Below, in pieces: positions 4,693 to 26,676 of a stretch of DNA of 26,676 nt. The notes beneath the pieces were generated by a model, which searched no databases, was not told the origin of the DNA, and worked only from the letters and a program-made list of their open reading frames with translations. The position numbers and the translations under genes were made by a program. Position 1 is the stretch's first letter. Every line of letters starts with the position of its first letter. Source of the stretch: a virus; IMG/VR virus record IMGVR_UViG_3300007513_000173, positions 1-26,676 of that record; one strand, 5' to 3'.

Positions 4693-5229
4693 ATGTCTTT
4701 ACCTTCCCCAAAGATTCCTGGTGGTTCTTCCAAGGGCAAGTATGACGACATGGTTGTTCGTCTAGGCCTGAAGGACCAGATGCGTGAGAGTATAAAGGGC
4801 GGAGCCACGTTCGAGGAAGCGTGCGAGTCTGCTGGAGTGCCTGTCGAGTTGGCTCTTGGTTTGACAAAGACCGACGAGGACTACATGGATATGTGGTCTA
4901 TAGCGAACCGTGCTGTGGGTGCTCCTGCCCCGAGGGTGTATCCCTCTACGGTACACCGCTCGCCTACTGAGGTGAAGGAAGGCTTCATGGAAATGCTTCA
5001 GGAGGCTGGTCTTTACGAGAAGTTGGGTCAGATGGCTGCCATGGCGGAGCCGGGAACCAAAGAGGGTAACCGTGTGCTTATGTTCTTCGGCAGGTCTATA
5101 TTGCCCATGGTTCTTCCCAAGGAGGCACCGGAGGCACCAACGATAGTCGCTTTGAAGGAGAAGACCGACGAAGAACTCAGGGACATGCTATTGACCATGC
5201 GTAAGGACCGGGTGAGTGGCGATGGATAG
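4693..5229 (+). CDS. Putative terminase small subunit
   Basis: The 178-aa product lies directly upstream of the large terminase, where small subunits normally sit. A likely DNA-binding helix-turn-helix is GGATFEEACESAGVPVELAL near residues 36-55. A helical central region (EVKEGFMEMLQEAGLYEKL) could mediate ring assembly, and the charged C-terminus (EKTDEELRDMLLTMRKDR) could contact TerL. The assignment rests on position, size and helix content, not on a clear family signature. I chose the ATG at 4693 because AGAGG lies 8 nt upstream; upstream in-frame ATGs at 4642 and 4678 lack a ribosome site. It overlaps the large-terminase start by 8 nt. Confidence 0.65.
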   Translation: MSLPSPKIPGGSSKGKYDDMVVRLGLKDQMRESIKGGATFEEACESAGVPVELALGLTKTDEDYMDMWSIANRAVGAPAPRVYPSTVHRSPTEVKEGFMEMLQEAGLYEKLGQMAAMAEPGTKEGNRVLMFFGRSILPMVLPKEAPEAPTIVALKEKTDEELRDMLLTMRKDRVSGDG

Positions 5230-6673: not shown

Positions 6674-6674
6674 T

Positions 6675-9516: not shown

Positions 9517-10818
9517 ATGGTATGGCCGATTTCCTCTGGAGCCTCCTGGCCTGGAACTAGTACAGGAGAGTTTGATAACTACGTAGGTCTGTTCAAAGAG
9601 GCTTACAGTGACATGATCCGTTTGAAGACCCAGACCACTGAGTCTGTGTTGAGTGACACGTTACTGCCCGAGAACCTGCAAGGCGACCCGCTGAACCTTG
9701 ACACCTACAAGGGTGTAGACCTAGTTCAGCGTGATCGTGGTCAGCAGTACGGAAACGACACGACAGGTGGAGACAAGAACTACGAGATGACTGGGGTCGA
9801 GCGCAGGACTGTTCTGCCTCAGTTCTGGGAGTTTGCCGAACTGTTTGATCCCCGTGACGAGCGTGCGCTCATGCGTGCGGTTCGCCCCGATGGTCAGTAT
9901 GCACAGAACGTGATCGCTGCATTCAACCGCAAAAAGGACGATGTGATTCTCGATGCGTTGCTTGCAGATGCAACGGTCAACGGCACGCTTCTGGATTCCT
10001 CCTCTGCGACTACCCGTAGAACAAACCTGCACGGGTTCCGCAAGGATACCGATATGAACTACGGGCGCACAGCGGCACAGGCCGATGCTCTGAATGCTGC
10101 CACTGCTGATGTGGTAAGTGGTGCTGGAAACAACATCACTGGAACACTGGGTGCATTGGTCGAGGCCAACTCCTCTGTTGCTGGCGAGAACGGTTGTCAG
10201 CATATCATTCTAGGCGACCTTGCGCCACTGAGTCAACAGAGCAGACAGGTGCTGGATACTGCTCCTGCTGCTGGTAGTGAAATCTTTGGCACTGCTGCTG
10301 GTACTGCCGACCCTACATTGCTGACTGAGAACGCATCCGGCCTTGCCTCGACTGGATTCCACATGAGAAAGGTTCTCATTGGTCTTCAGGTTCTCCATAC
10401 AGGGGGTCTTCCGCAAGGAACAAAGATCCACTGCGTGGTATCTCCCGCTGACGTTGTGAACATGATGCATGAGGCTCAGTACACCAGTGCTGACTACAAT
10501 GCGTTGCGTCCATTGCAGAGCGGACAGCCGGTTGACTTCCTGGGTGTTTCGTTCCGTGTGTGTAACCAAATCACTCGTGGCGAGACCGTTCTTACTGGAT
10601 TCGAGGGCACGACTGCTGACACATTCGACACAAGCACTGGGCACTACGCATACATGTACGCAGAGGGTGCTGGTGTCTTCGGGATGACCAATGATGTGAC
10701 TGTACGCTTCGACGAGATCCCACAACGTGGATACTCCTTGCAGTGTTACCATAACTTCGGACTGGGTGCTGCACGCATGGACCCGAAGCAGATGATCATC
10801 ATTCCGTGTTCCGACTGA
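9517..10818 (+). CDS. Major capsid protein
   Basis: The 433-aa product follows the scaffold gene and precedes tail genes, the standard place for the coat protein. It starts with a long N-terminal helix region (FDNYVGLFKEAYSDMIRLKTQ). It then has E-loop/P-domain-like segments such as LPQFWEFAELFDPRDERALMRAV, NVIAAFNRKKDDVILDALLA and a beta-rich C-terminal half (KIHCVVSPADVVNMM, PVDFLGVSFRVCNQI). The ending RMDPKQMIIIPCSD is a typical last strand. This fits the HK97-fold capsid proteins of BPP-1-like and related podoviruses, although I rely on position and overall pattern. The start has AAAGGA 8 nt upstream. Confidence 0.88.
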   Translation: MVWPISSGASWPGTSTGEFDNYVGLFKEAYSDMIRLKTQTTESVLSDTLLPENLQGDPLNLDTYKGVDLVQRDRGQQYGNDTTGGDKNYEMTGVERRTVLPQFWEFAELFDPRDERALMRAVRPDGQYAQNVIAAFNRKKDDVILDALLADATVNGTLLDSSSATTRRTNLHGFRKDTDMNYGRTAAQADALNAATADVVSGAGNNITGTLGALVEANSSVAGENGCQHIILGDLAPLSQQSRQVLDTAPAAGSEIFGTAAGTADPTLLTENASGLASTGFHMRKVLIGLQVLHTGGLPQGTKIHCVVSPADVVNMMHEAQYTSADYNALRPLQSGQPVDFLGVSFRVCNQITRGETVLTGFEGTTADTFDTSTGHYAYMYAEGAGVFGMTNDVTVRFDEIPQRGYSLQCYHNFGLGAARMDPKQMIIIPCSD

Positions 10819-10833
10819 TTATGGGGGTGGCCC

Positions 10834-11322
10834 GTGGCCGGTAAGACCCACTGGTTGAGCGACAAGTCGTTGTCACTGATCCGTGGGGCTACGGTTGCGG
10901 GTTTCACTGAGACTTGGGTGAACTTGTTCAAAACACTGCCAACGGCTGATAGTGCTGCTGGCGTTGCTGCGAGCGAGGAGTGGACTGGTGGGGACGGGTC
11001 TGTAGGTTCTGGAGGCACGGGTCGCATACGTGTGTATCCTAGCCAACAGGCTGACAAGACCCTTCCCTACTGGTCTTCCACTCAGTCTTCGGGCGACCTT
11101 CGGTATGTGCAGAATCAGGTGACGATTTCGTGGACATCTGCCGACATACCTGGCGGTGACTCCTGGGCGAACCAGACTGTGCGTGGCATAGGTGTATGGA
11201 ACTCCGACGTTAGCGGTTCAAATGACCTGCTATACTGGGAGAGGTTTGACGACAACCGCCTTGTGGCCGTTGGCGAAGAGTTCATCCTGCCCGTGGGCAG
11301 ATTCAAAGTTAGGGAAGACTAA
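10834..11322 (+). CDS. Putative virion surface/tail-fibre-like protein, paralogue 1
   Basis: The 162-aa beta-rich product starts at GTG (10834) behind GGGGGTGG. Its plan matches the next gene: a short helix, WVNLFKTLPTAD, a Gly/Ser/Thr-rich loop, RIRVYPSQ, QVTISWTSADIPG, VRGIGVWNSD, LLYWERFDDNRLVAVGEEF and a closing strand GRFKVRE. Small phage proteins with this plan ('LxLFTxxPTxxG', then 'hydrophobic-G-hydrophobic' strands and a terminal 'GD/GE-x-x-x-hydrophobic') are often annotated as tail-fibre or decoration proteins. The exact role is unknown. Its position just after the capsid gene favours decoration of the head, or an adaptor role. Confidence 0.6.
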   Translation: MAGKTHWLSDKSLSLIRGATVAGFTETWVNLFKTLPTADSAAGVAASEEWTGGDGSVGSGGTGRIRVYPSQQADKTLPYWSSTQSSGDLRYVQNQVTISWTSADIPGGDSWANQTVRGIGVWNSDVSGSNDLLYWERFDDNRLVAVGEEFILPVGRFKVRED

Positions 11323-11810
11323 TGGGACTTACAAATATTGGGGAGCAAGTTCTTCTCAACAGGTTGTTTGCTGGCGTTGCTTCGGGCACTATCAACGCTT
11401 TGTTGGACGGTACTCAGGAGTACAAGTTGGCATTGTATACCGCTTTTACCGATCTGGAAAACCCGGCTGGTGGCACAACCACGGAGTGTACTGGCAGTGC
11501 TGGTACTGGCAGCCCCGCTGGCCCAGCGTATTCAGCGCAAGTAGTAGCCTTCACACCCGCCCTGGCCGAGGCGACTGGCACTGGTAGCAACACCGTTGAT
11601 TTGTCTGCCACCGTAGAGTTCACCGACGATGCGGGAAGTGACTGGGGAATAATCTCGCACTATGGCATTCACGTTGGTGCCACCGGGTTTACCGTAGCCA
11701 ACAGCAACTGCATATTTGCCGCTGCGTGGTCTTCCTCTGCGACTGTGAACTCAGGTGATACCGTTCAGGTTGCCGCTGGTGGTGGCGGGTTGGCTATTAC
11801 GGCTAACTAG
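11322..11810 (+). CDS. Putative virion surface/tail-fibre-like protein, paralogue 2
   Basis: The 162-aa product has the same layout as its upstream neighbour: GEQVLLNRLFAG helix, YKLALYTAFTDLENPAG, a Gly/Ser/Thr loop, AYSAQVVAFTPAL, NTVDLSATVEFTD, a strand WGIISHYGIHVG, CIFAAAWSSSATVNSGDTVQV, and a final LAIT strand. This is a clear example of the small phage tail-fibre/decoration-like family. ATG at 11322 shares its A with the TAA stop of the previous gene (TAATG), so translation is probably coupled. The two proteins have identical lengths, which suggests tandem duplication followed by strong divergence. Confidence 0.65.
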   Translation: MGLTNIGEQVLLNRLFAGVASGTINALLDGTQEYKLALYTAFTDLENPAGGTTTECTGSAGTGSPAGPAYSAQVVAFTPALAEATGTGSNTVDLSATVEFTDDAGSDWGIISHYGIHVGATGFTVANSNCIFAAAWSSSATVNSGDTVQVAAGGGGLAITAN

Positions 11811-11835: not shown

Positions 11836-12201
11836 ATGGCGTTAGTCCAGTTCGACTCTGCCAACCCTGAACCTGTCGTCCCGACTGCCTATCCTTCTGC
11901 CCAGAAGTTGAAGGACGGCATCATCGATGGCACCTACACAATGGCTTACCAGGAAAATGGGACGGGTCTTTGGTTCCGGGTTACGGAGGTTCTTTCGTGG
12001 CAAAGTTCTCACCGGGAGGGGGTGTGGGACTTCCGGTTAGCCGACACAGTGATGCTTGTTGAGCGGGAACTCTGTTGCAAGGCAATCGTCAAGGTTGCAG
12101 CCCCCCATGAGTTAGGGATGGACATTCGAGGGCACGGGCCAGGAATCTACACGGCTGGCGAGGCTATGAACAACAGGCTGTTTGTCAAGGCGCCGGTATG
12201 A
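11836..12201 (+). CDS. Hypothetical protein, 121 aa
   Basis: Not recognised. The soluble, mixed alpha/beta product has many aromatic residues in the middle (YQENGTGLWFRVTEVLSW) and ends NNRLFVKAPV. The ATG at 11836 has GGGAGG 4 nt upstream. Its stop overlaps the next start (ATGA). Placed between the surface proteins and the tail genes, it is probably a minor structural or completion protein, but this rests only on position. Confidence 0.6.
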   Translation: MALVQFDSANPEPVVPTAYPSAQKLKDGIIDGTYTMAYQENGTGLWFRVTEVLSWQSSHREGVWDFRLADTVMLVERELCCKAIVKVAAPHELGMDIRGHGPGIYTAGEAMNNRLFVKAPV

Positions 12202-14819
12202 CAACTGCTATTGCGGCGAGGGTAGTAAACAGTTCCAGAACCCTTATATCCGGGGTTGGCGACAACGCTTCCTACACCTTGGTGGCAGGTGACAACGACA
12301 AGATCATTATAGCATCTGCGGCTCAGGACGACGACGAAGAGTTCAGGACTGGCAACTCCCACAGTATCGAATACCGGGCACGGGGTGCCGCCACCTTCCT
12401 GAGCCTGCCAACTTCAGGCACCGCAGCAGTCCCTCGGGTGGACACTACAAACACAACCCTGTCGAACAACACCAATGTATCTAACGCAAATAGGCGTGTG
12501 TCCACTGGCCCTTCCGGCGGGCAGAGTTTCCGGGCAGCGGGCAAAGAGTTTGTTACTTCACAGTCGCTGAACTACGGTGCGAGGTGTCGAGACGACTTCA
12601 CCGAATGCCAGGTCGCAATAGATTTCAGTCAGTGTGCGGCCGACACTGCTTGGGAGTTCCGTACAAGGTGGGAAGATGACGGCGGGTCCACGACCAGCGT
12701 CACCTGCCCCACGATTACAACTGCCGCCGCCGCTGGGGGCACTACCCACAGCCTTTCAGACACCGACGAGACAATCACGGTAACGTCAACCCAGGTCATT
12801 ACAGCAGTTCAGACGCATGGTCTATCCGACACTGACGAAAGCATCGCACCCACTGCCACCTCCTCTGCAATCACCTCGTCAAAGATACACAGCCTGTCCG
12901 ACACTGACGAAACGATAACTGCTACAGCAGTAAGCGTTATTACGGCAGTACAGACCCATGGCCTGTCACATGCCGAGACCGTCACGCCCACTGCGACGGT
13001 AAACGTCATTACGGCGGTACAGACGCATGAACTCGCACACACCTCTGCGTCCGTTACCGTTACGTCCACGCAAGAGATAACTGCAAACGTACTGCACAGC
13101 CTTACGCATTCGGAGACGATCACTCCCACGGCAACAAACGTCATCACTGCCGTACAGACGCACGAACTATCGCACTCAGATACAATAACCCCTACTGCTA
13201 CGGTAAACGTCATTACAGCGGTACGGGTTCACGACCTTTCACACTCCGAGACGATCACCCCGACTGCCACCAACGCCGACATATCCTCGCAGTCGTTGTC
13301 GTCCCATAGCCTGTCACATTCCGAAACAATCACGCCCACTGCCACCTCGTCTACGCTGACCGCTGACCAAATACACGACCTGTCCCATGCTGAGACGATC
13401 ACGCCTACGGCCTCTACGGGGGTTATCACTTCCAATAAGGTCCACAGCCTGTCAGACTTCTCGTTTGCCGCCTCATTTACTCTCACCAACAGGATCAAAG
13501 CGGTACAGACGCACAGTCTTTTAGACACCGACGAGGAGATCACACCCACCGCCGCTGGAGTTATTTCCGCTAAATCTGAACATTCTTTGTCAGGATCTGG
13601 TTCTCCTGTCGTAAGTAGTACTGGGGCATTGTCTGCGGGTATCACCCACTCCCTTTCGCACGCTGGCACGGTCGAGCCAACAGCGACATCGGCGCAGATC
13701 ACTACCGAACAGTTACACGGGCTGGTGTCGGCCCCACCCGCCATAGAACCGACCGCTGTTGGGTCTCTCAGTGTCACTTCGGTACACTCACTGGCAAGTT
13801 CCGTTGAAATCACCCCTACTGCTGATGCCGAGTTGTACGCAGCCCAGGAGCATTCCCTTGTTGACTCGGCCACCATACCGTCACTGACAGCAGTATCGGA
13901 GATATCCTCAAGGAATACACACTCCCTGTCCCACTCACCCGAGATCACCATCACGGAGATCGGGGAGTTGACAGCGGTTCAGACACATACGCTGATCTTC
14001 TCGGGGACGGTTGGGGCTTCAGCGTCAACAGCGAGTATAAAATCGGGCGTAATAGTAAGCCTGTCCGGGGTAGCGTCGATACCAGAACTGGTCGCTGAGG
14101 CCTATATTTACGCAGCAACGTACATACTTGAGGTTACTATAGATGGTGTTGGCAGCCTATCGGACAGTCTTTTGAAAAGGAGTGAGTACATGGCAGTGGA
14201 GGATATTTGGAATGTGGGCTTATCTCAACTAGGGGTGGGTCTCGTAGATGGGCAGGTTGACGGAAGTGCCCAGGCTGCTCTAATAGACAAGATTTGGGAC
14301 AACTTCAGGCAGCAGTTCATTAGCGACCACGCTTGGAATGGTTGCAAGACTACGGAAGTCCTGGTGCCGCTGGCAGACTCGAACTTCAAGGACACGAGCA
14401 GGTGGGCCTACGTGTACACCCTGCCAAGTGACTATATTCGGGCACTTACGCTAAATGGCTACCCCAACCAGCCTAAGTCCTCTGAGTCTGTAGCGTGGGA
14501 AATCGAGATAGTAGCCAATGATAGCGGTACAAAGTCCAGGTGCTTGGTAACGAACCAATCGTCGGCTAAACTTGAGTATGTGTTCGACGTAGGCGACGCT
14601 AACATAGAACTTCTGTCTCCCGCCATGAGTCATGCAGCGGGGTTGGGCCTTGCATCGTTCGTTGGTGCGAACTTTGGGAAGAGTGCTAGCGAGTTAGCCC
14701 TGATAGAGCAGAAGTACCGAGAGGCACTACTGAAGGCCAAGGGTATTGACGGCCAGGAGTCGTCTGGTAAGTACTTCTCGCCAACTGAGTTGGTAGACGT
14801 TAGGTATAGAGGAGGGTAG
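12198..14819 (+). CDS. Repeat-rich tail protein fused in frame to tail tubular protein A
   Basis: One uninterrupted 873-aa frame. Residues 1-183 form a beta-rich N-terminal region that includes ECQVAIDFSQCAADTAWEFR, a pattern seen in phage tail appendage domains. Residues 184 to about 645 hold some 20 tandem units of about 23 residues with consensus H-x-L-S-H/D-x-E-T-I-T-P-T-A-T-x-x-x-I-T-A-V-Q-T, likely forming an elongated beta structure. Residues 665-873 are a complete tail tubular protein A (T7 gp11 type). An ATG at 14190 with its own SD begins exactly there, so both a fusion and a free TtpA may be made. The upstream start at 12198 overlaps the previous stop (ATGA). A TGA in the +1 frame at 14173-14175 shows that one frameshift would separate the two genes, so a sequencing error or recent fusion must be considered. 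Confidence 0.8.
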   Translation: MTTAIAARVVNSSRTLISGVGDNASYTLVAGDNDKIIIASAAQDDDEEFRTGNSHSIEYRARGAATFLSLPTSGTAAVPRVDTTNTTLSNNTNVSNANRRVSTGPSGGQSFRAAGKEFVTSQSLNYGARCRDDFTECQVAIDFSQCAADTAWEFRTRWEDDGGSTTSVTCPTITTAAAAGGTTHSLSDTDETITVTSTQVITAVQTHGLSDTDESIAPTATSSAITSSKIHSLSDTDETITATAVSVITAVQTHGLSHAETVTPTATVNVITAVQTHELAHTSASVTVTSTQEITANVLHSLTHSETITPTATNVITAVQTHELSHSDTITPTATVNVITAVRVHDLSHSETITPTATNADISSQSLSSHSLSHSETITPTATSSTLTADQIHDLSHAETITPTASTGVITSNKVHSLSDFSFAASFTLTNRIKAVQTHSLLDTDEEITPTAAGVISAKSEHSLSGSGSPVVSSTGALSAGITHSLSHAGTVEPTATSAQITTEQLHGLVSAPPAIEPTAVGSLSVTSVHSLASSVEITPTADAELYAAQEHSLVDSATIPSLTAVSEISSRNTHSLSHSPEITITEIGELTAVQTHTLIFSGTVGASASTASIKSGVIVSLSGVASIPELVAEAYIYAATYILEVTIDGVGSLSDSLLKRSEYMAVEDIWNVGLSQLGVGLVDGQVDGSAQAALIDKIWDNFRQQFISDHAWNGCKTTEVLVPLADSNFKDTSRWAYVYTLPSDYIRALTLNGYPNQPKSSESVAWEIEIVANDSGTKSRCLVTNQSSAKLEYVFDVGDANIELLSPAMSHAAGLGLASFVGANFGKSASELALIEQKYREALLKAKGIDGQESSGKYFSPTELVDVRYRGG
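12747..14130 (+). repeat. About 20 tandem 69-bp (23-aa) repeats inside the tail protein gene
   Basis: Nineteen units begin with histidine, followed by a last degenerate unit that begins SLSG. Unit length is 22-25 residues, mostly 23. The most regular units read like HDLSHAETITPTA followed by a short variable strand. Later units (after about unit 11) diverge. The regular spacing of small, beta-prone residues suggests a solenoid or stalk. The DNA is less conserved than the protein, so the array is old or selected at protein level. Confidence 0.85.
14190..14819 (+). CDS. Tail tubular protein A (internal start product)
   Basis: The 209-aa product corresponds in size to T7 gp11 (196 aa), the adaptor ring between portal and nozzle. 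Family features are AVEDIWNVGLSQLG at the start, DKIWDNFRQQFISDHAWNGC, YVYTLPSDYIRAL near residues 74-86, LEYVFDV, and a C-terminal helix AGLGLASFVGANFGKSASELALIEQKYREALLKAK. ATG at 14190 has AAGGAG with 7-nt spacing, better than many starts in this operon. The same frame is also read from 12198 as the C-terminus of the repeat protein. It is followed one base later by the TtpB start. Confidence 0.85.
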   Translation: MAVEDIWNVGLSQLGVGLVDGQVDGSAQAALIDKIWDNFRQQFISDHAWNGCKTTEVLVPLADSNFKDTSRWAYVYTLPSDYIRALTLNGYPNQPKSSESVAWEIEIVANDSGTKSRCLVTNQSSAKLEYVFDVGDANIELLSPAMSHAAGLGLASFVGANFGKSASELALIEQKYREALLKAKGIDGQESSGKYFSPTELVDVRYRGG

Positions 14820-14820
14820 T

Positions 14821-17800
14821 TTGTGGTTTCCGCAGGTTAGTTTCCGAAATGGTGAGATTTCCCCGGTTTTTGACGGCTTGTCCAACCCGGAGTTGTACGA
14901 GTCATCTTGCCGTAAGGTTGAGGGTGGTGTGGTTTCAACGAATGGGACCATAAAGAAGCGTGGTGGCACAAGATTCGTCGCTGATACCGAGTTTTCGACC
15001 TCGAACAACGGGAAAACGTACACTTCAGACGCTTGCAAGTTGATCCCGTTCATACACGGCACAGATATCTACGTCCTTGTGTTTGAGGTCATGTCAGACG
15101 ACCAGGACTCATGGGGCATCATTCGTGCGGTAGTGAACAACACGCTAATAACCTCCATTGATGCGACTACCCCTGCTGCTGAGGCTTGGACCGAGGGGTA
15201 CAACCTGCCATTCAGGACCATTACCGCTGGAACAGACAAACTGAACTACTGGCCGCCCGGAACCGACGACACATCTGGCAACACAAACGTATACACTGGC
15301 GTTTTCGGACAGCACAACTTTACTGCTGCCCAACTGCCTGATCTTCAGTACTTCCAGCACGAGGAGATCCTGGTCGTCATGCACCCCGATGCGGTACCTT
15401 TGCAGGTATACCAGAGCACCAGCGACACTGGCATCAGCAGGCTTGCAACAAGGCCGTATGAGTGCAAGGGGCGATCACCGGGCGTGAAGCGTGTTGGTGA
15501 AAGGTTCTCCATGGTGGTGACACGCCAGTCTGAACCGGCTGCCTGGACGGGTCTGGAGCATGCGTGGGACGTTGAGACGACACGCCACTGGTTTGACGAG
15601 GACGACATGTTTGCCATATACAGGATTGGTCATGCCAGGAAAAACAACCCGGCCCCATATCCGCCCGTAGGTGCCTCCGAGGACGTGTGGACCGTGAACA
15701 CAGACTACAACGACTGGGGAGAGGACTTGCGTGGTGTGTACGCCATGGTGACCCGTGTCCACCACTCCAAGAAGGCCGAGATGAGGCTTGTGTCTTCCCT
15801 CACATGGTTCGCTGATTCAACCTGGGAGTTCAAAGGCTTCACGGATGACCCATTTGACTGGGACGGCCCCTGGTTGCCCGAGGATACGACCAAGTGCAAC
15901 ATAGACTACCGGCACCAAGACCCCCCAAATGCCGCAGCCAGCGGGGCGGGAGACACCGAACCGGGCGGACCGATACCAACCCCCACTGCACCCCTGGGTG
16001 GTGTAGCGTACGGGCATAACCCTACGCAGGTTGTGCTTCAGAATGTCGGGTTGAATGGATCGGCGGCAGACAAGATCACAAACCTAAACCAACTGGTAGG
16101 ATGTGTGGTAACCAAACAGGTCGGTAGTACAAATCAGGCTACAGACGAGAAGGCACTGGCAATGGTGGCTATGACTGGCACTGACCTTGGGGGCGACCCA
16201 GCGTCAGACGGGACCAATATCGCTATAGCCTACAACATGGTGGGGACTGAGGCACCCTCTGCGACGCAGCCCACGTGGGAGGACAGAACCGACACGGAGG
16301 TTTCGGGTGCAGAAATATACCGACTACGTGACAAAAGTTCCAAGGCGTTGTTGCCAACCATTACCATGGCGGGTGCCTGGGATAGTTGGGCGAACAGTGA
16401 GTCCGGCGTGGAGGCTGGGTACTACAGGAAGATAGCGGCTGGGGACGACGTGTTCCTGTACGTTGGAAATGTCCCAGACTCGGACATATTCAAGCATATC
16501 CCGGAAAACCATGACGCTGCAATCGACACAACTGAACATGGTGACGTTGCTAACCCCACTGCTGCTGTTGAGATCGGCGGGGTGGTACATATCAATGGTG
16601 GGTCGTTCGCACTGAAAGACAAGAAAGACAACTGCTACCTAGCATATTGCCTAGTGGCACCAATACACCAGTCTGTCACCTCTAAGTTTGAACTGGGGTG
16701 GTCAACTGCGATTGGTTTCCCAGGTTGCGGGGTCAGTCACCAGGGCAGGGTGCTGTTCTCAGGTTTCACTCGTGAGAAGGGAGTGGTTGTCGGCAGTTTA
16801 CCCGACGACCCCACGAACTTCTCTCTAGGGGCAGATGCTTCTGACGGCATGCACTTTGTGGTGAACGATCTCAGGGGCAGTGCGGTGAAGTGGCTGGCTT
16901 CCGGCAAGGATCTTATCTTTGGAACTGAGTCCGCTGAGTTTTCCATGACTGGTTCTCCACTGTCTTCACTGAGCGTAGGTGTTGACCGGCAATCGGCGTA
17001 TGGTTCTGGTGGGGTACGCCCGGTCATAGCGGGGAACCTGCTACTGTACGTCCAGAAGGACTTGCGGACTATCCGTGCCATGAAATACAACTTCGATAAC
17101 CAGCGATACATAAGCCTAAACATAACCTCAGAGCATGAGCACATGTTTAGCGGTAGAACTATCAAGGAGTTGATTGTGTGGGAGGACACGGAAGATCCTG
17201 TCGTCCTTGTGAGGTTGTCTGACGGAGAGGTGTTGTCGTGCCGTGTAAGTGAGAAGGGTGGGTTCTTTGGTTGGTCAAGGATGAAGTTCCCACTATGCTC
17301 GTCGATATGCCCGTCTAGGAACTACGCACAGGCATTGAATGGCCGACCCACAACGGGTGACGACTTCTACATTTCCATAGAAGGTACTAACAAGTATCGG
17401 CTGTGTCGTTTCGAGGATGAGTTATACTTGGACGAGTCGGTCACTCCGCAGCACCCGGCATACTCCTCGCCCAATCTGACAATAACACTGCCTACCGGGG
17501 TGAGCCACCTGGACGGGACCACTGTTTCGGTTGTACTCGACGGGCTTTACAGGGGCGAGTTTGCATGCACAGGCGGTGTTATCGTTGTAGGTACGGAAAG
17601 CGCAACAACTGCTGCACCTCTTGTTCGTGTGGGCAAGAAGATATCCATGGTCATTCAGCCAAGAATACCAGAGAGCGCAGGCACCCCACGTTCGGCAAGC
17701 ACGTTGGGTAGAAATAAGAACATATCGTCGGTAGCGGTCGCAGTGAATGCAACACGTGGACTGAAGGTGAATGGTTACGAGATCGACAACACCTTCACGC

Positions 17801-17958
17801 AGGTCTCCGACGCTGATTTGCCCACTGCTGTACAGGGCTGGTCTGAGGTTCCTGTTACGGGGGTTTACGGTGTTCAACCGGTTGTTGAGATATCGTCAGA
17901 TCGTCCATACGCAGCAGAGGTTTTCGGGGTAACAATGGATATGAGTACGGAGGGATAA
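14821..17958 (+). CDS. Tail tubular protein B (nozzle)
   Basis: The 1045-aa product begins WFPQVSFRNGEISPVFDGL, with ESSCRKVEGGVVSTNGTIKKRGGTRFV after it, the typical opening of T7 gp12-type nozzle proteins ('f-x-G-x-h-S-P...G-x-x-x-R-x-G-T-x-F'). It is longer than T7 gp12 (794 aa). Asp/Gly/Thr-rich central segments at about residues 330-560 could account for the extra length. A later WLASGKDLIFGTESAEFSM and the C-terminal beta-sandwich also fit. The start is TTG (14821), with GAGGAGGG 4 nt upstream. It forms the tail tip below the adaptor ring. Confidence 0.9.
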   Translation: MWFPQVSFRNGEISPVFDGLSNPELYESSCRKVEGGVVSTNGTIKKRGGTRFVADTEFSTSNNGKTYTSDACKLIPFIHGTDIYVLVFEVMSDDQDSWGIIRAVVNNTLITSIDATTPAAEAWTEGYNLPFRTITAGTDKLNYWPPGTDDTSGNTNVYTGVFGQHNFTAAQLPDLQYFQHEEILVVMHPDAVPLQVYQSTSDTGISRLATRPYECKGRSPGVKRVGERFSMVVTRQSEPAAWTGLEHAWDVETTRHWFDEDDMFAIYRIGHARKNNPAPYPPVGASEDVWTVNTDYNDWGEDLRGVYAMVTRVHHSKKAEMRLVSSLTWFADSTWEFKGFTDDPFDWDGPWLPEDTTKCNIDYRHQDPPNAAASGAGDTEPGGPIPTPTAPLGGVAYGHNPTQVVLQNVGLNGSAADKITNLNQLVGCVVTKQVGSTNQATDEKALAMVAMTGTDLGGDPASDGTNIAIAYNMVGTEAPSATQPTWEDRTDTEVSGAEIYRLRDKSSKALLPTITMAGAWDSWANSESGVEAGYYRKIAAGDDVFLYVGNVPDSDIFKHIPENHDAAIDTTEHGDVANPTAAVEIGGVVHINGGSFALKDKKDNCYLAYCLVAPIHQSVTSKFELGWSTAIGFPGCGVSHQGRVLFSGFTREKGVVVGSLPDDPTNFSLGADASDGMHFVVNDLRGSAVKWLASGKDLIFGTESAEFSMTGSPLSSLSVGVDRQSAYGSGGVRPVIAGNLLLYVQKDLRTIRAMKYNFDNQRYISLNITSEHEHMFSGRTIKELIVWEDTEDPVVLVRLSDGEVLSCRVSEKGGFFGWSRMKFPLCSSICPSRNYAQALNGRPTTGDDFYISIEGTNKYRLCRFEDELYLDESVTPQHPAYSSPNLTITLPTGVSHLDGTTVSVVLDGLYRGEFACTGGVIVVGTESATTAAPLVRVGKKISMVIQPRIPESAGTPRSASTLGRNKNISSVAVAVNATRGLKVNGYEIDNTFTQVSDADLPTAVQGWSEVPVTGVYGVQPVVEISSDRPYAAEVFGVTMDMSTEG

Positions 17959-18356
17959 TGTCAGAGGATTGGCAAGGTGCTATAGACACGGGTATGAGTG
18001 CGGCTTCTCTGGGGCACACGCTGGGTGCCTCATGGTTGGGTCCAGTGGGTCTTGTAGCCGGTTTCGCTCTGGGCCATAGGGCCAAGAAGAAGCGCAAGGA
18101 GAAGGAGAGTCTCGAACGCAAGCAGAAGGCAGACACCATGCTTTCTCAGGCGTACGAGCGTGGACGACTCACCAGGAAGAAGGCCGAAACGGACCGTTCC
18201 AAGTTCGCTGGAGGCGGATTATCTACAAGTTCTGGGTCTGCTGCTTCGGGCGAGCGAGGAACTGTGCGTGAGGGCATATACCAGCAGGCGGCCCTTTTAG
18301 CGGGCCTACCTAAGGGACACAAGGCGAGAAACCCTGCAATGTTTGGGATGGCATAA
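17958..18356 (+). CDS. Small virion protein with membrane-like segment (internal virion protein candidate)
   Basis: A 132-aa product. Residues 18-39 form a glycine-rich hydrophobic segment (LGHTLGASWLGPVGLVAGFA), followed by a strongly basic helix (HRAKKKRKEKE). The C-terminal half is flexible and ends in EGIYQQAALLAGLPKGHK. A small protein with a glycine-rich hydrophobic helix directly after TtpB resembles the place of T7 gp14, an ejected internal protein that reaches the host envelope. The start codon overlaps the TtpB stop (TAATG) and is preceded by GGAGG. EGIYQQ also occurs at residues 74-79 of the next protein. Confidence 0.6.
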   Translation: MSEDWQGAIDTGMSAASLGHTLGASWLGPVGLVAGFALGHRAKKKRKEKESLERKQKADTMLSQAYERGRLTRKKAETDRSKFAGGGLSTSSGSAASGERGTVREGIYQQAALLAGLPKGHKARNPAMFGMA

Positions 18357-21300
18357 TGGTACAGGTGAACCTAACCGGGCCTAACTACCGTGAGGCCGTG
18401 GACACACAAGACGAGTTGGCCGTAAAGGACTTACACCAAGAATACAAGTCTGCCCTTGACGACATCAGCACGATAAACACGCTTCTGGAGAAGGGTGGCA
18501 AGGTCATAGATAATATGGCACAAGGCCACTTCGAGGAGGCGTTGCTCGGGCCGCAGGGGGAGTTCCTTGGTGAGGAGGGTATATACCAACAAGGACTACT
18601 TGCTGGCTCTAACCTGGACGACGTGGACGATAACGGGGTACCTGTCCCGGTGGACACTACCGAGGCAAAGGCACACTTCGACGAAGAATACGAGAAACTT
18701 GTGCAGGGTTCCCCACTAATGTACCGGGCCATACTTCGAGGGAAGAAGGCAGGGGTAAAAGGCAAGTACGCCGCTCTTGTAGAGGAACGGGCTTACATGG
18801 AACGGGATGTCGCACTGTCCCGAATGAGTTCGGACGAGGGGACCAAGGAGGACTGGGCACGCATCCTGAGGTCGCAAAACTTGATCAGGAATCCCAACCT
18901 GAGGGTAGATGCACTAAATAGAACGTCCTTGCAATACGTAAATGCAGCCACTAGTGAGGCACCAAGCCCCCTGATTGGCCTTCAGACGGTGGACGCTGCC
19001 ATCGGCGCAGCCAACCTAATCGCACGTTACGACATGTCAGCGGAAGCAGAAGCGTTGGCTAGAAATAATGCCAACGACCGAGCGAATGCATACGCCAAAT
19101 CCGAGGAGGGTAGGTCGCACCTTGCTTACTCCGTGGTCAGTGGTGTGGATAGCGAGGATCATCTTCAGGCTGCTCGGCTTTACATGGGCACATTGGGCGG
19201 CGAAACTGCGGACTGGGCTGATACGTTCCGGGCACTTGTTCCGGCACTAGAGAGGAGTCGTGGTGGCGGGATTTACACTGCCGGAGATGCGAGATTGGTG
19301 TTGAATGCCGTGACCCCCCAGGTACTAGGTGCTGCAAGGGTTGTCAACCCTGAAGTACTCAAGGAATTGCTTGAGAGTGTGTTTCAAAGTCATACAAAGG
19401 TGGACGTTAGCGGGGCGGATGACGAAGCCATAATGGATGTCCTGATGGAACTTGAGCGGGAGCAACACAAAAACTCAGACCCTGCCTTGGGGGCTACAGT
19501 CGCCCTCCTCGAAACCTACGTGGGTAAGACATCCGTGATTGCTAGACGTGGGGCTGCTTCCGGCACAGGGATGCCGTGGGCCAACACCCCAAGCACTGAT
19601 AATGTCAAAGAGTCTGGGGCTATCAAAGCACTTGCGGAGGCAGGGATATTGCCAGAAGGTACCGAGTTTAGGGGGATAACGAAAGCACTGTCGGACTTTA
19701 CTCCACACAGCCAGAGGGCGTTTTTGGAGGAGTTGATCTCCTTTGCCGGTAGGAGGGGAAATGGCAACACCCCAGGACTTATGGGTATGCTTAGTGAGAT
19801 AGAAGACATACTCACGCTCCCCGGTGCTAAGTTGGTGAATGCCGAGAATGGTATTCCCCAAGTGGTATACCCGATCCCCGGTGCCGAGGGGGAATACCGC
19901 AACGTCCTCACACGTGGAAAGGTTGAGGTTCATCAGAGAAGTGAAGGACAGGGAGAGGTCGTACGTCCTTCTGAAGAACGGTCAACACGCCCTTCGGGGA
20001 CGACCGGACAACCCGTGGGTGGGCAACTGAACGATCCTGGCACAGGAAACCCCAATCCAGGCGTTGTGGAGGTAGGCGACACAGGCGTTGTGGAGATAGG
20101 CGGCCCCGACCAGCCTATAGGGATGATTCTTGGGGACAATTATCGTTCAAGTGAGCAGCAGCAACGGATAGAAGAACTTATCGTGTCGATTCATGAAGAG
20201 AGACTAAAGGAGGAGGAGGAGGAGGAGGAGGATCCGGTCAAGTTTATGCACGCCTACGTTTCCCTTGTGGCGTTGAGCAAGTTGGTACATTTCGGTGCCA
20301 AGGATGGGCGAGGCACTAGACTCCTTGAAAGCCTGTTGTCCAAGGGAGCGAGAGAGGGTATCTATAGTGGCCTGAGCGTTCTTGATAAGATGACCCGTGA
20401 CAAGGGCTTCCTGCAGGTGAACATAATGAAGTTCCTGAAGGACACACCACTAGGCAAGATGGTCGCACTGGAAGTTGGAGAAGAGGTACTGCTCGCTATC
20501 ATTGATCGGGCATACGGTACGAGTGCTCAGGAGTTACTGAAGAAGAAGATACAGAATGCCGTACAGAAGGAGATGTACAAGTCCATAAAGGAGAACTTGA
20601 ACCTGAAGAAACTTTTACGTGGGCATTGGGAAGTCGTAAAGTGGCTGAGTAAGGGGACCGCCAACATTGTCAGCAAGACACCAGAGGGTGCCTATGGATG
20701 GGCACGCAATGCCGCCAAGTGGACTGGCAAACAGATTATGCACCACGTACGTAACCCCATGACAATAGCAACCGGTCTTCGAAGGTTGATAAGCCTTCCA
20801 TGGCTGCTCGCTGATGTGGCCGTCACGGAAGGCTCGGAGGCCAATATAGAAGGTCGTGAGAGGCACGCTACTGAGAGCCAGTCTGGTCGCCCAGTGCAAA
20901 CGCTTTCAGACGGAGAAGCCCTGAGAAATGTCCTAATAGCCGCCGGTGCCAAGGATCTGGTGGGCGGTGCGTTCTTTGAATCTGGGCCTGGAAGGGATAC
21001 GCCCGGGACCGGCTTTGCCGCCGGAATTGACATGTTTACTGATCTCATAAAGACAGCAGCCCCTGGTGGCATACCTATCACTACGAACAGAGAGCAGGAC
21101 ATGTATGACCTCGCCGTCGGCTCCGGGACGATCATTTCTGCCGGTTATTACAACGCTATACCCCGTGGGTTATATGAGCGTTTATACCCAGATCAGAAGA
21201 ATGGCGGTGCGTTCAATCAGACTATTCACGTCGTACAGGAAGCGGTGGCGAATGAGGGCATGCTGCTTCCCTTCCATCCAGTCCCCGACCACACGCAACC

Positions 21301-22771
21301 TTATCGAGAAACGCCCCCGACGGGCCGTCGAATATTTGGTACCAAGGGGAAACCGGTAGAATATCGTGAGGACCACATATACACAGTCTATGATAGCCCA
21401 GGGGACAGAGAGGACTATGGTAGGCGGCTGTATCAATACGTACTCAGTAACCCAAATGACCTGGAGGCTTCAGTACTGATGAAAGACTGGGTTGATGAGG
21501 GCAAAAAAGGTATGGCTACGTTGTTGGATCTAGTGCAGGCTTTCCCCTTAGACCAGATCCACTACAGCGAAGTGTTCAGCCCGGAGAACCTGACCGTTGA
21601 GGGTTGGGAAGCCGTCCACGGATCGGGATCGGATGACACTCGGATTGTGGGCGATCCTCATGACAAAGACCCACCGATGCGGTTGCCTGTGGAGCACACG
21701 GTGGAAGATTTTCTTGAAACCATTGAGCCACTTATTCAACACGATAATGCACACACGTATTTCAAGTCCCTACTCCCGCCAATGCCTCAGCAAGATGCTA
21801 TGGTGCGAATATCCGGCATAGGCATTACTGGTTCACACCACATGAAGTGGGAACTCACTGCAAACGAGCAGTTCAACCACTTCGTTGTGTGGAGGACACT
21901 GCGTAGCATGGAGGACGGCGGGTTCGATCCTTCAGCGGTTCCTCGATCAGATGCCGAACGAGCGGCTGACTTGAGCAGCGACTGGTTGGAGTTCCTCGCT
22001 GTTGAAGGTGGTGCTATGAATGATGTTGATCTTACTGGGTACATGGACGAAGATGAATGGCAAAAGAAGGCTGCGGAGGTGGGAACCCAGGCAGAACTCA
22101 TGTTTGGCCCCAACTTCAGCCGTGTGCAGGACCATTTCAAGGGTGCTCCTGGGTTGGCGTTACGCCGATCACTAGATAGAGTTGGGCTAGTTAGCGACTT
22201 GGACGAGACATTAGATCAGTTGCGTAGTAAAGAGCGACCGGACCTCGCCCACTATGGGCGGTTTATAACTGGATTCATGGAGGGTGAGTCGAAAGAGAAG
22301 GTACTGTCTGAGCAGGAAGATGCTACCGTTTTTACCGGTGGCGAGAACTGGCTTCCTACGCTCTTCGACACCCCTGGCTATGATATCACTAACTGGGGTC
22401 TCGCTGGGGGAGTAGAGGTTCACCCCTCCCAGGCCGAGAGGGCTAGGGGACTTGTGCTGAGTAGGGCCATTGAGCAGTGGAGTCTTGCGCTGAGTACGCT
22501 AGAGACGCAGGCAGCCCTTCCGACACATGTGCGGATGGACACGGGGTATGAAATCAAGCACCGAAAGCCATCGACAAGACGAAACTTTCCTCCACTCTAT
22601 ACACGGTCTCAAGTGCAGGCAGCAAGCACAGTCTTCTTTCGCCCCAACGGAACCAAGCAGTGGATACCATTGAACTCCATGAAGAGTGCGATAGACGACA
22701 TGAGGAGGTACCGGAAACTCCTACACCTGAAGAAGCAGTTCGAGTGGAGCCATGAAGAAGGAGACCAGTGA
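18356..22771 (+). CDS. Large internal virion protein, 1471 aa
   Basis: The product sits where T7-like phages encode gp15, an ejected internal core protein, but is about twice its length. Residues 1-540 are helical (for example SALDDISTINTLLEKGG and ARLVLNAVTPQVLGAARVV). Residues 540-625 are a low-complexity linker: Arg/Ser/Gly/Pro, then two copies of GVVE(V/I)G, then seven consecutive Glu. The C-terminal part is mostly helical with basic amphipathic stretches (AQELLKKKIQNAVQKEMYKS). I see no transglycosylase or protease motif. Start and upstream stop overlap (TAATG). The role is inferred from position, size and helix content. It could be cut at the linker into two mature proteins. Confidence 0.7.
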   Translation: MVQVNLTGPNYREAVDTQDELAVKDLHQEYKSALDDISTINTLLEKGGKVIDNMAQGHFEEALLGPQGEFLGEEGIYQQGLLAGSNLDDVDDNGVPVPVDTTEAKAHFDEEYEKLVQGSPLMYRAILRGKKAGVKGKYAALVEERAYMERDVALSRMSSDEGTKEDWARILRSQNLIRNPNLRVDALNRTSLQYVNAATSEAPSPLIGLQTVDAAIGAANLIARYDMSAEAEALARNNANDRANAYAKSEEGRSHLAYSVVSGVDSEDHLQAARLYMGTLGGETADWADTFRALVPALERSRGGGIYTAGDARLVLNAVTPQVLGAARVVNPEVLKELLESVFQSHTKVDVSGADDEAIMDVLMELEREQHKNSDPALGATVALLETYVGKTSVIARRGAASGTGMPWANTPSTDNVKESGAIKALAEAGILPEGTEFRGITKALSDFTPHSQRAFLEELISFAGRRGNGNTPGLMGMLSEIEDILTLPGAKLVNAENGIPQVVYPIPGAEGEYRNVLTRGKVEVHQRSEGQGEVVRPSEERSTRPSGTTGQPVGGQLNDPGTGNPNPGVVEVGDTGVVEIGGPDQPIGMILGDNYRSSEQQQRIEELIVSIHEERLKEEEEEEEDPVKFMHAYVSLVALSKLVHFGAKDGRGTRLLESLLSKGAREGIYSGLSVLDKMTRDKGFLQVNIMKFLKDTPLGKMVALEVGEEVLLAIIDRAYGTSAQELLKKKIQNAVQKEMYKSIKENLNLKKLLRGHWEVVKWLSKGTANIVSKTPEGAYGWARNAAKWTGKQIMHHVRNPMTIATGLRRLISLPWLLADVAVTEGSEANIEGRERHATESQSGRPVQTLSDGEALRNVLIAAGAKDLVGGAFFESGPGRDTPGTGFAAGIDMFTDLIKTAAPGGIPITTNREQDMYDLAVGSGTIISAGYYNAIPRGLYERLYPDQKNGGAFNQTIHVVQEAVANEGMLLPFHPVPDHTQPYRETPPTGRRIFGTKGKPVEYREDHIYTVYDSPGDREDYGRRLYQYVLSNPNDLEASVLMKDWVDEGKKGMATLLDLVQAFPLDQIHYSEVFSPENLTVEGWEAVHGSGSDDTRIVGDPHDKDPPMRLPVEHTVEDFLETIEPLIQHDNAHTYFKSLLPPMPQQDAMVRISGIGITGSHHMKWELTANEQFNHFVVWRTLRSMEDGGFDPSAVPRSDAERAADLSSDWLEFLAVEGGAMNDVDLTGYMDEDEWQKKAAEVGTQAELMFGPNFSRVQDHFKGAPGLALRRSLDRVGLVSDLDETLDQLRSKERPDLAHYGRFITGFMEGESKEKVLSEQEDATVFTGGENWLPTLFDTPGYDITNWGLAGGVEVHPSQAERARGLVLSRAIEQWSLALSTLETQAALPTHVRMDTGYEIKHRKPSTRRNFPPLYTRSQVQAASTVFFRPNGTKQWIPLNSMKSAIDDMRRYRKLLHLKKQFEWSHEEGDQ
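20058..20102 (+). repeat. Two 21-bp direct repeats in the linker of the internal virion protein
   Basis: The units at 20058-20078 and 20082-20102 differ at one base and are offset by 24 bp. They encode GVVEVG and GVVEIG. The repeat lies in the Gly/Pro linker and probably arose by slippage or local duplication. Confidence 0.8.
20207..20231 (+). repeat. GAG trinucleotide tract (poly-Glu)
   Basis: Seven consecutive GAG codons after an AAG, encoding Lys-Glu(7) at residues 618-625. On mRNA this is a long SD-like AGGAGG run. An in-frame ATG lies at 20246, about 14 nt beyond, which is rather far for initiation. The tract may slow ribosomes between the two halves of the protein. Confidence 0.85.
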
Positions 22772-25700
22772 TACTACAAGACCCTAGTGGGGAACCATAC
22801 GAGCCGTTCGGGTTCACCCCCAGACAACGTCGTGAGTGGGATATGGGCGTTGACCTGCATGGTGAGGAGGCGATGATACGCAACCTGCCCAGCCGAGGCG
22901 ATAACACTTCCGGGTTTGGCGAGACCCTGTGGGCTTACACGGCAAGCGACTTGTGGGGTGGTGACCTGTTTACCGACACCCTTTCAGGCAACTCTTCTGC
23001 GCTTGTATATGGTACGAACCCTACGCTAAAGGGTATCGGGAAGATTGCGAACTCGTTGGTGTCGCACCCGCTTGGATGGATAGACCCCTTCAACACCGTT
23101 GAGGAGTACGAGAGTTCAATCGACGAGGCGTACTTTGACGCAGTATACTCGGTGACTAGGCTATTCGGGGATACTCCAGTTGAACCCATGTCTGTAGAGG
23201 AGGCTTTTAGAGCCATACCTGAGGAGTTGAGGAACCACCCCGACACTCACGCCATACTTAGGCTCGCTAACCAAGTCAGACAGTTGGAGTCGGAGGGTCA
23301 CCGGAGAGCCATGGTCTCTTCCTGGTTGAGAGAGGCACAGAACAGAAATATCCTAGAGAGAACGCCATGGTATAGCGCACTGCTGGCCGGTCTTGTCATG
23401 CTACCAGTTGACCTGTCTGCGTGGGCGGACTACTTCATGACTGGTGGCCTGCTAAGGGCGGGAGTGATCACTCGGCAGGTTGTTGGTAGTAGCGCAAAAC
23501 ATTACGGCAAAACCATAGTCGCCGGTATGGGCACAGGTGCTGTTTCTGGCTCGGCCCGTGAGTACTTACTGTGGCAAGGGCAGGAGTTGCGAACTCCCGA
23601 GATGGGTATACAGGCTGTAGCGGTAGAGACGGTACTCGGCGGGTTTATCGGTGCTGGGCTGGAGTACTTAGGCCACGGATACACCCGGGCTGTCGCTAGA
23701 AGGGCTGGCACGGAGGCCACGGGTGGGGCTATGTCACCACTACTTCCTGTGCCTACGGCGGAAGACTTGGCGGCGGCTATTCCAATGCCAAGGTCCGACA
23801 TAGAGGACGGTTTCATAGAGAGTTCTTACGAGCAACATGGGGTAGGGAACCTTGGTGGCGATACCTGGATGAAGGATCAGTACCAACGACAACTATCCAG
23901 ATATAAGCGTGACGTGCTGAACGACAGGCTGGAGGCAGTTGGCAAGCCAAGGGTAGAGGACAGTCCACTTGAGCAGGCGTGGGAGTGGGCGGTGCTCACA
24001 CGTGAAGATTGGACGCTATGGGATGTAAAGGTTCGGGACATGCTAGCAAGGCACATTGCCGAAGGTGTCCAGTTCAGCCGACCTCTACTGGACGACGGCG
24101 ACCAACCCGTGCTACCGGGAATGACCGACGTGTTTGAAGTGGATGGCGCAACACGACAAGCAGAGGCTGATGTATTCGCTGCTCTACATGCCGCAGAGGA
24201 ATCTATCATGCTCAAGAGGTTGGATCAGTTGGAAGAGATGGCTGCCAACCACATTGCTAACGGCCTGACTATGGAATCCATGAAAACGGCATGGGAAGCA
24301 GCGGGTGGAACACTAGACCCTGACGACCCAGCGTATGAAGGCGTTAGAAGGTTGATCGAAAACTTCACCCTAGAGAGAGCGGCAGTTGTGCTCAACGGGG
24401 GCGAGGTTGAGTTTGGTGACCTCTTGTCTGTACGTGGCAGTAGTGGCAAGGTTGTTGCTGACCAGGGATCGTCGGACGACCCACTTACACCAGAAGCACT
24501 AACCGAACACTTCAGGAAAGAACTGGACGCAGACTCACATGAGTACCAGTTACTGAGGCCATACCTGGAACACCTACAGGAGACCGGTGAGCATGTATCC
24601 ATAAGGGGTGTGGCTACCTTGTTCAGCGACGCTGAGGGGGGCAGGCCGTTGGTCGTTAAAGCCTCTCATACACACCATCGCCACGTTGACGACTGGAGTC
24701 CAATAAGTGCGGACGGCAAAGAGATCACCGTGACGATCAAACCCAACCTGGACCACCCACTGTTCGACGTTGAAGAGGGTGTATTGCCTGGGTTGAGTCC
24801 ACTAGATCAGTACCGTGTTGAGTCCACAACCAAGTACAGGTTCTCTAGGCAGGAGAGGGTCGGGCGTGATGGAGAGACCTCCAGGGTAGTGATCTTGGAG
24901 AGTGTTGATTATGGGGACACGGCGGCTCGACAGGCGTTTGATAGTACTGAGACCGCTGCTGCTGTGCGTAGTGGGGCGAGGCGTGACCCCGGAAGGGCGA
25001 GGTACAGGCCACCGGACACGCAGAATCAACTAGACAAAGTCTCCATGCGGAAAGCACTAGCCCATTATCTGATAGAGGTTAGAGAACTAGAGAGACTGGC
25101 TGAGAGACACTGGGGTGACATATCGCTCGTGAACATGGGGTCTTCCGGTGTTGCCCAGCATGCTTCTGGTGAGTACGACCCCCACAACATGTGGGCAAGG
25201 GAGTTCAAATACCGACGAATGGAAACTGATGAAGGATCAGCCGTAGACCTTACGGAGGAGGGTAACTGGGAAACAGGCGGTTCACTTAGTTTCTCAGACG
25301 TACATGAAAAGTACAGGGGAGACATATCGGCTGACGCTAGGCTTGTAGTCGAAGCAAAGGTGCATAACAATCCGAATCACGAGGGCTTCTTTGTTACAAC
25401 TCCCGACGAAAAGGTGACCATATATCTCGACAGTGACGGGTATGTCATAGGGTTCCTTGATGCGGACGGTAAGGCACGTGTTGAACACTTAGGCAAGCAC
25501 CACCAAGAGGTAATCACCGAAACGGACGCAGACCCAGCAGGGAAAACAACTAGCGAGATCAACAGCATGCTAGGGGACCAGATACTTCTCAATCCAGGTG
25601 AGGCAGAAGCGGCGGTCGCACGACTAAGGGAGGGTAGGGCAACCGAACCTTTGACGTTGAAGCCACGTCGAGTGAAGCGGTTTGCAGAAAAGAGAGGCAG

Positions 25701-26676
25701 GACGGATGTAGTATCCCACCGTGCTGTGCTAGACAGAGAACACCTAGACACTCTCTTTGACGAGGAAACTATAGGGGCCGACTTCGACGCTGCCGACCAC
25801 ACAAAGATCGTCCAGGGGGGGAGAGTCGATGTAGCGGAAGCAGACAACAAGGCCTGGGAAGCCTTCTACCGGCTACAGGCACGCATGAATCTATTGCTAG
25901 GCTTCCATACGGGTCGTCGCCACAACGAGTTGAGGATGCTCAAGTGGAGCGACCTGAAGATCACCAAGGACGGCGAAGGCAACATGGTGTCAGCCACCCT
26001 TCGGATACCACAGGTAGAGTACAAGAAATCTCCCGAACGAATCCAGTTGGCGGAAACCCTGAGGTTTGAGGGAGATCAACTGCACGTAATCAAGAAACTG
26101 GACCGGTTCCGTGAGTTGGAAAAGTCGAGGCTAGACTACTTTGCAAGCAAGGTGTCCGAAGAAGGGCAGTTCCCTGAGGGGGGGAAATACTACCAGACGG
26201 CGAAAGACATCAGGGATAAACATCCCGACTTGACCGACGTTGGGGGAGAAGACACCCTCATGGTGCGGCCATATCAGATGGGGAAAAGGGGTGCCATACC
26301 TTTCGGCCATCCAATGGAGCCATCAACCGCAAACAACACATCCTTACGTACCGTCGAGTTATGGTGGTCCAATCAGCGAGACATTATGAACGAGTTCCTG
26401 GCTGAGACATCTGGTTCGGGTGCCCGAGGAAAAGCGTGGCGTAAACATGTCAAGACGGGTGCCCGGGGTGGTCCAGGCGCAAATGAAGCCCTAGAGATCA
26501 CTCGAAGAACAATACTGAACCTAGCACGGAACTCAGTAGACCCAGCGGTCGTGGACACAGAGTACTTCAACACAGTGGTGCGTCTACACACTGGTCATGC
26601 GGAACCAGCGGTTATGGAGAGAAGTACCTTCGAGACTTCCTATGAGCAGGAACTGGTTCTGAACCGTGCAGGGAAC
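22768..26676 (+). CDS. Giant virion-type protein with C-terminal tyrosine-recombinase-like domain (partial, runs off window)
   Basis: I read an uninterrupted frame of 1303 codons from GTG at 22768 to the window end, with no stop. AAGGAG lies 4 nt upstream, and the start overlaps the previous stop (GTGA). Residues about 200-305 have three hydrophobic glycine-rich segments (from 202, 249 and 279), a pattern seen in large ejected phage proteins. The middle is charged and unrecognised. From about residue 1030 a tyrosine recombinase catalytic domain appears: LLGFHTGRRHNELRMLKWSD (catalytic Arg candidate R1051), YKKSPERIQL (K1086/K1087), ITRRT (R1246), HTGH (H1277), then a tyrosine candidate at 1292. 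Glu1243 occupies the place where box II usually has His. Position suggests an internal virion protein in the place of T7 gp16, but no transglycosylase motif is seen. Confidence 0.85.
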   Translation, partial: MILQDPSGEPYEPFGFTPRQRREWDMGVDLHGEEAMIRNLPSRGDNTSGFGETLWAYTASDLWGGDLFTDTLSGNSSALVYGTNPTLKGIGKIANSLVSHPLGWIDPFNTVEEYESSIDEAYFDAVYSVTRLFGDTPVEPMSVEEAFRAIPEELRNHPDTHAILRLANQVRQLESEGHRRAMVSSWLREAQNRNILERTPWYSALLAGLVMLPVDLSAWADYFMTGGLLRAGVITRQVVGSSAKHYGKTIVAGMGTGAVSGSAREYLLWQGQELRTPEMGIQAVAVETVLGGFIGAGLEYLGHGYTRAVARRAGTEATGGAMSPLLPVPTAEDLAAAIPMPRSDIEDGFIESSYEQHGVGNLGGDTWMKDQYQRQLSRYKRDVLNDRLEAVGKPRVEDSPLEQAWEWAVLTREDWTLWDVKVRDMLARHIAEGVQFSRPLLDDGDQPVLPGMTDVFEVDGATRQAEADVFAALHAAEESIMLKRLDQLEEMAANHIANGLTMESMKTAWEAAGGTLDPDDPAYEGVRRLIENFTLERAAVVLNGGEVEFGDLLSVRGSSGKVVADQGSSDDPLTPEALTEHFRKELDADSHEYQLLRPYLEHLQETGEHVSIRGVATLFSDAEGGRPLVVKASHTHHRHVDDWSPISADGKEITVTIKPNLDHPLFDVEEGVLPGLSPLDQYRVESTTKYRFSRQERVGRDGETSRVVILESVDYGDTAARQAFDSTETAAAVRSGARRDPGRARYRPPDTQNQLDKVSMRKALAHYLIEVRELERLAERHWGDISLVNMGSSGVAQHASGEYDPHNMWAREFKYRRMETDEGSAVDLTEEGNWETGGSLSFSDVHEKYRGDISADARLVVEAKVHNNPNHEGFFVTTPDEKVTIYLDSDGYVIGFLDADGKARVEHLGKHHQEVITETDADPAGKTTSEINSMLGDQILLNPGEAEAAVARLREGRATEPLTLKPRRVKRFAEKRGRTDVVSHRAVLDREHLDTLFDEETIGADFDAADHTKIVQGGRVDVAEADNKAWEAFYRLQARMNLLLGFHTGRRHNELRMLKWSDLKITKDGEGNMVSATLRIPQVEYKKSPERIQLAETLRFEGDQLHVIKKLDRFRELEKSRLDYFASKVSEEGQFPEGGKYYQTAKDIRDKHPDLTDVGGEDTLMVRPYQMGKRGAIPFGHPMEPSTANNTSLRTVELWWSNQRDIMNEFLAETSGSGARGKAWRKHVKTGARGGPGANEALEITRRTILNLARNSVDPAVVDTEYFNTVVRLHTGHAEPAVMERSTFETSYEQELVLNRAGN
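25885..26676 (+). other. Tyrosine recombinase catalytic-domain segment
   Basis: A domain within the giant protein, from about residue 1040 to the edge. The order Arg (TGRRHNEL), beta-hairpin Lys (EYKKSP), Arg (TRRTILNLARNSVDP), GH (LHTGHAEP) and Tyr is that of lambda-integrase-type enzymes. R1051 to R1246 is long (195 residues), and R1246 to H1277 is about eight residues longer than usual, so insertions are present. The His of the usual HxxR box appears as Glu. The domain may be active, or kept only for DNA binding. Confidence 0.65.

Follow-up and report, generated by a model that had tools for sequence, protein, structure and literature searches.

Genomic context of the last gene

The stretch of DNA analyzed here (the window) is an entire IMG/VR record, IMGVR_UViG_3300007513_000173, of 26,676 bases. 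Its open reading frames (ORFs) and profile matches indicate a podovirus-like module, followed at the end of the record by a very long frame. The relevant features are as follows.

5216–6673: large terminase
6648–8327: portal
9517–10818: major head protein
10834–11322 and 11322–11810: two adjacent genes for Gp80-like fibre proteins of 162 amino acids, both matching PF23140 (Gp80 podophage fibre protein)
12198–14819: adaptor-type tail protein of 873 amino acids, with a match to PHROG 394 at residues 668–870
14821–17958, + strand: tail nozzle (gp12-like), PHROG 376 (hmmscan, E 2.8e-69)
17958–18356, + strand: 132-amino-acid protein in the gp14 position, assigned by gene order only
18356–22771, + strand: 1471-amino-acid protein in the gp15 position, assigned by gene order compared with other phages
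22768–26676, + strand: putative gp16-like internal virion (ejection) protein with a C-terminal recombinase-like segment; 1303 codons, 3′ end missing
23287–24285, + strand (residues 174–506): PHROG 342 (gp16-type) region with two hydrophobic segments, from hmmscan and hydropathy
25852–26124, + strand (residues 1029–1119): match to the front half of a tyrosine recombinase catalytic domain (R-I helix, beta sheet, and next helix)
25909–25953, + strand (residues 1048–1062): box I, TGRRHNELRMLKWSD, with R1051
26431–26643, + strand (residues 1222–1292): expected site of box II and the nucleophile, with candidates R1225, R1246, R1254, H1277, and Y1292

The opposite strand encodes a primase/helicase and an ERCC4-type nuclease. 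No tRNA or Rfam matches were found in the record, and PADLOC returned nothing for it. The two Gp80-like genes are probably a tandem duplication. In the adaptor-type protein, a long run of degenerate repeats of ~23 residues (THSLSHSETITPTATNVITAVQ...) precedes the part that matches PHROG 394, and the relatives of that part are stand-alone proteins of ~200 amino acids. Neither the gp14-slot nor the gp15-slot protein had a significant family match in profile searches. A similar order of nozzle, gp14 slot, gp15 slot, and gp16-like gene is found in four other phages (L002, L003, L004, and L005). In one of them, Cobetia phage Carin1 (L005), the same slot holds a protein of 2855 amino acids with no assigned function, located at 15041–23605 after a putative lysozyme.

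The first half of the last gene resembles gp16-type ejection proteins

A preliminary description of the window had placed an open frame of at least 1303 codons in the last slot of the tail/internal-protein block, with hydrophobic gp16-like segments toward its N terminus, and all three observations hold. The frame begins with a GTG that overlaps the stop codon of the preceding gene and has GAAGGAG upstream, and it stays open through the contig end. GC content by codon position and codon usage fit a single frame along the whole gene, which lies after the nozzle gene and the genes in the gp14 and gp15 slots.

PHROG 342 (“internal virion protein with endolysin domain”) matched residues 174–506, with E values of 1e-9 for the full-length protein and 5e-10 for its N-terminal part, and the match takes in only profile positions 284–474 of 1235. 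Two moderately hydrophobic segments, at residues ~202–223 and ~279–301, lie inside this region. In a Klebsiella phage (L003), a PHROG 342 match covers almost the whole of the protein in the same slot. Taken with gene position, the profile match supports assignment of the first half of the last gene to a gp16-like virion protein, and packaging in the virion would be expected from homology and gene position only. The window protein shares with T7 gp16 and PHROG 342 proteins the match at residues 174–506, the slot after the nozzle and gp14/gp15 genes, and the hydrophobic segments, but it has no recognizable N-terminal transglycosylase and, unlike the Klebsiella phage relative, it has a recombinase-like segment at its C-terminal end.

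A probable tyrosine-recombinase-derived segment in the C-terminal part

The preliminary description also proposed that a tyrosine recombinase domain is fused to the virion protein. Such a domain was recovered in part by family profiles: PHROG 216 (integrase) aligned to residues 1036–1109, with an E value of 5e-4 for the full protein and 8e-5, against 38,880 families, for the last 323 residues. NF041502 (NCBIfam integrase_1) aligned weakly at the same place (E 0.02). Neither of these profiles was chosen by the box-I motif of the window. Pfam gave no match to the recombinase segment of this protein, and a phmmer search against PDB sequences found nothing relevant. A profile of 71 viral integrases scored 34.6 bits with the C-terminal part, across residues 1029–1119, compared with 7.3 for the best of 1000 shuffles; this profile was built from sequences picked by the window’s own motif and so favors box I. 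In a six-frame search of the window with the integrase profile, this was the single significant match (E 1.2e-9; next, 0.45).

PHROG 216 and the viral integrase profile both identify box I with the catalytic arginine, R1051, and the beta sheet lysine, K1086, which sits about where the beta-hairpin lysine belongs. The general box-I pattern occurred in none of 5000 shuffles. When IMG/VR was scanned with TG.R.NE[LIV]..L.W.D, 83 stretches were obtained, all in separate ORFs of 185–498 residues, and the five of these ORFs that were checked against PHROGs all matched integrase families. With a second pattern, containing TGRR, the scan returned 38 stretches, and the 36 ORFs recovered from them, of 176–466 residues, included no fusion. 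A core-binding domain was not detected upstream of the segment: the profile spans up to ~95 residues before box I, and the match begins at residue 1029.

Box II and the nucleophile are not recognizable

The preliminary description had read an integrase-type order of R…K…R…GH…Y into residues ~1050–1292. R1051 in box I and the placement of K1086 stand, and the second half of the set (R1246…H1277…Y) is not confirmed. The 71-integrase profile found no match beyond residue 1119, hhalign of residues 1105–1303 gave a probability of 0.2%, and a box-II position matrix made from 38 integrase segments scored the region at the level of shuffles (p 0.52 and 0.32). The order R, K, R, GH, Y appeared with similar spacings in 309 of 5000 shuffles (6%), and the bare order in 2504.

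In integrases, the box II arginine usually lies 22–24 residues before the His/Trp, and the tyrosine 9–11 residues after it. R1246 is 31 residues from H1277 and R1254 is 23; the nearest tyrosine, Y1292, lies 15 residues after H1277, and the positions 9–11 residues after H1277 are occupied by S1286, T1287, and F1288. None of the candidates, ExxR1246, NxxR1254, and KxxR1225, matched [HK]xxR followed by [HW] at 22–24. MAFFT alignment with 45 integrases placed R1254 at the invariant arginine, 23 residues before H1277, with no tyrosine in the nucleophile column, and another alignment pointed to K1222-x-x-R1225 as box II. Neither alignment was significant, and the active site is therefore unproven. 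With neither box II nor the nucleophilic tyrosine recognizable, strand cleavage has probably been lost or strongly altered. The missing signal need not mean that box II is gone: its sequence may have diverged, or an insertion may separate it from the beta sheet.

In a small family of viral integrases (L133, L138, and L165; also L129, L100, and L180), a long insert separates the beta sheet from box II, and the distance from R-I to R-II in L165 is 156 residues. L133, L138, and L165 were tried as a guide to box II in the window protein; they looked similar to it around RR...R[DN]S, but with few members they did not settle its position.

One alternative is that the virion carries an active tyrosine recombinase, and that the ejected protein cuts and rejoins DNA at entry, for example in genome circularization or integration. 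The good context of R1051 and K1086 is in its favor, as are the viral precedent for a long R-I to R-II distance and the usual spacing of exactly 23 residues between R1254 and H1277. It has to be set against a box II score equal to that of shuffles, the lack of a tyrosine 9–11 residues after GH, and the near-chance residue pattern; a membrane-bound gp16-like assembly would also be an odd setting for a recombinase tetramer. We consider this reading unlikely. Slightly less likely still is the more specific proposal that a gp16-like protein brings a functional site-specific tyrosine recombinase into the virion as its cytoplasmic end, to act on phage or host DNA at entry.

Structure prediction points to a possible recombinase fold early in the segment

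Residues 961–1303 were modeled with AlphaFold2 using an alignment guided by the 45 viral integrases. The model had a mean pLDDT of 66 and a pTM of 0.62, with pLDDT mostly 70–94 at residues ~1021–1130 and 33–73 thereafter. The first seven PDB matches in a Foldseek search were XerH and Cre (probability 0.98–0.72, ~130 columns), with weak E values (best 0.03) and TM-scores below 0.4. Since the fold might have been forced on the model by the aligned integrases, a control segment, residues 561–903, was modeled with the same set. The control reached a pLDDT of only 52 and a pTM of 0.30, and there was no recombinase among the 50 PDB matches listed for it. The first-ranked matches and the higher pTM thus favor the recombinase fold that the preliminary description anticipated, in this model and over the first half of the C-terminal segment, although the Foldseek scores are weak; an active site is not thereby demonstrated.

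The control model (561–903, 24448–25476) has a confident beta-rich end at approximately residues 870–903 (pLDDT 77–90). Foldseek also linked it weakly to CdiA-CT and colicin D tRNase domains (E values from 0.3 upward), perhaps by chance.

The recombinase match could instead be a local resemblance, with residues 950–1303 forming an unrelated gp16-C-type domain. The match spans only ~90 residues, Pfam finds nothing, and the 71-integrase profile drew on sequences selected by the window’s own motif. PHROG 216 was chosen without that motif and still reaches its E value against all 38,880 families, the match extends past box I through the beta sheet, and the control model fails; we regard a local resemblance as improbable. 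The profile searches and the model with its matched control together make fusion of a tyrosine-recombinase-derived segment to a gp16-like protein well supported. An intact R-K-R-H-Y active site is not supported.

Searches for relatives of the fusion

A tblastn search of 50,697 phage records with the whole protein and both halves found no relative of the fusion at the sensitivity used, nor did protein scans of IMG/VR and GTDB genomes at theirs. The strict box-I motif also retrieved no relative of the fusion from GTDB. The 45 records examined on account of a related portal or nozzle had integrases, if at all, as genes of their own; in two of the 45, weak similarity was limited to the gp16 part. 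With no relative found, there is no sign of selection on the fusion and no guide to its conserved residues. In the titles and abstracts retrieved from limited libraries for papers that pair integrases or tyrosine recombinases with virion or ejection proteins, no such fusion was reported, and the main text of the survey by Iyer et al. (2017, PMC5512222) of polyvalent injected proteins contains neither integrase nor recombinase as a word.

An assembly chimera, in which the end of a gp16-like gene was joined to a partial integrase gene at the contig end, would account for a fusion found in no relative and for a segment that lies within the final ~825 bases of its metagenomic contig. However, the segment continues in the frame and on the strand of the rest of the gene and resembles it in GC by codon position and in codon usage (correlation 0.86), and the normal integrase core-binding domain was not detected ahead of the segment, all of which make a chimera quite improbable. 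A functionless in-frame integrase leftover at the edge of the structural module would fit the unrecognizable box II and the missing nucleophile, but the frame is open throughout and its coding composition is normal, and we judge this very improbable.

A possible role in handling incoming DNA

The explanation that we favor, while giving it only about an even chance of being correct, is a gp16-type ejection protein with a C-terminal DNA-handling domain derived from a tyrosine recombinase, in which catalysis is impaired or unproven. Against it stand the single orphan sequence and the missing 3′ end. T7 gp16 extends across the periplasm and through the inner membrane, which places its C-terminal domain in the cytoplasm as a DNA-binding hub (reviewed in PMC8954989). 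The window protein would be packaged and ejected as T7 gp16 is, its hydrophobic middle would insert into the inner membrane, and its C-terminal end would reach the cytoplasm, where phage DNA enters. There, the recombinase-derived domain would most likely hold on to the DNA as it enters, a task also attributed to the C-terminal end of gp16. The simplest role for such an end would be DNA gripping or end protection, and 80-alpha gp44, which is ejected and binds genome ends, offers a precedent for a role of this kind (PMC7290940). Circularization, integration, or attack on host DNA by the recombinase-like segment, as raised in the preliminary description, is speculation; if the segment were active, it could allow recombination without the need for new protein synthesis.

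The segment resembles phage tyrosine integrases (PHROG 216 and PHROG 1) in box I, the beta sheet, and the following helix, but the window protein has no recognizable core-binding domain, box II, or nucleophile and is at least 1303 residues long, compared with 300–500 for those integrases. The domains known from ejected phage proteins include RNA polymerase, transferase, peptidase, and nuclease types. To these, a recombinase-derived domain placed where DNA enters would add a new fold, and its presence suggests that an integrase could evolve into a part of the ejection machine that grips DNA. In having an enzyme-type domain on a large, virion-associated, and probably injected protein, the window protein is similar to the polyvalent or injected multidomain phage proteins (PMC5512222). 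The giant virion RNA polymerase of coliphage N4 is likewise a DNA-acting enzyme delivered with the genome (PMC12633501), although that enzyme is an RNA polymerase, unlike the recombinase-like segment described here.
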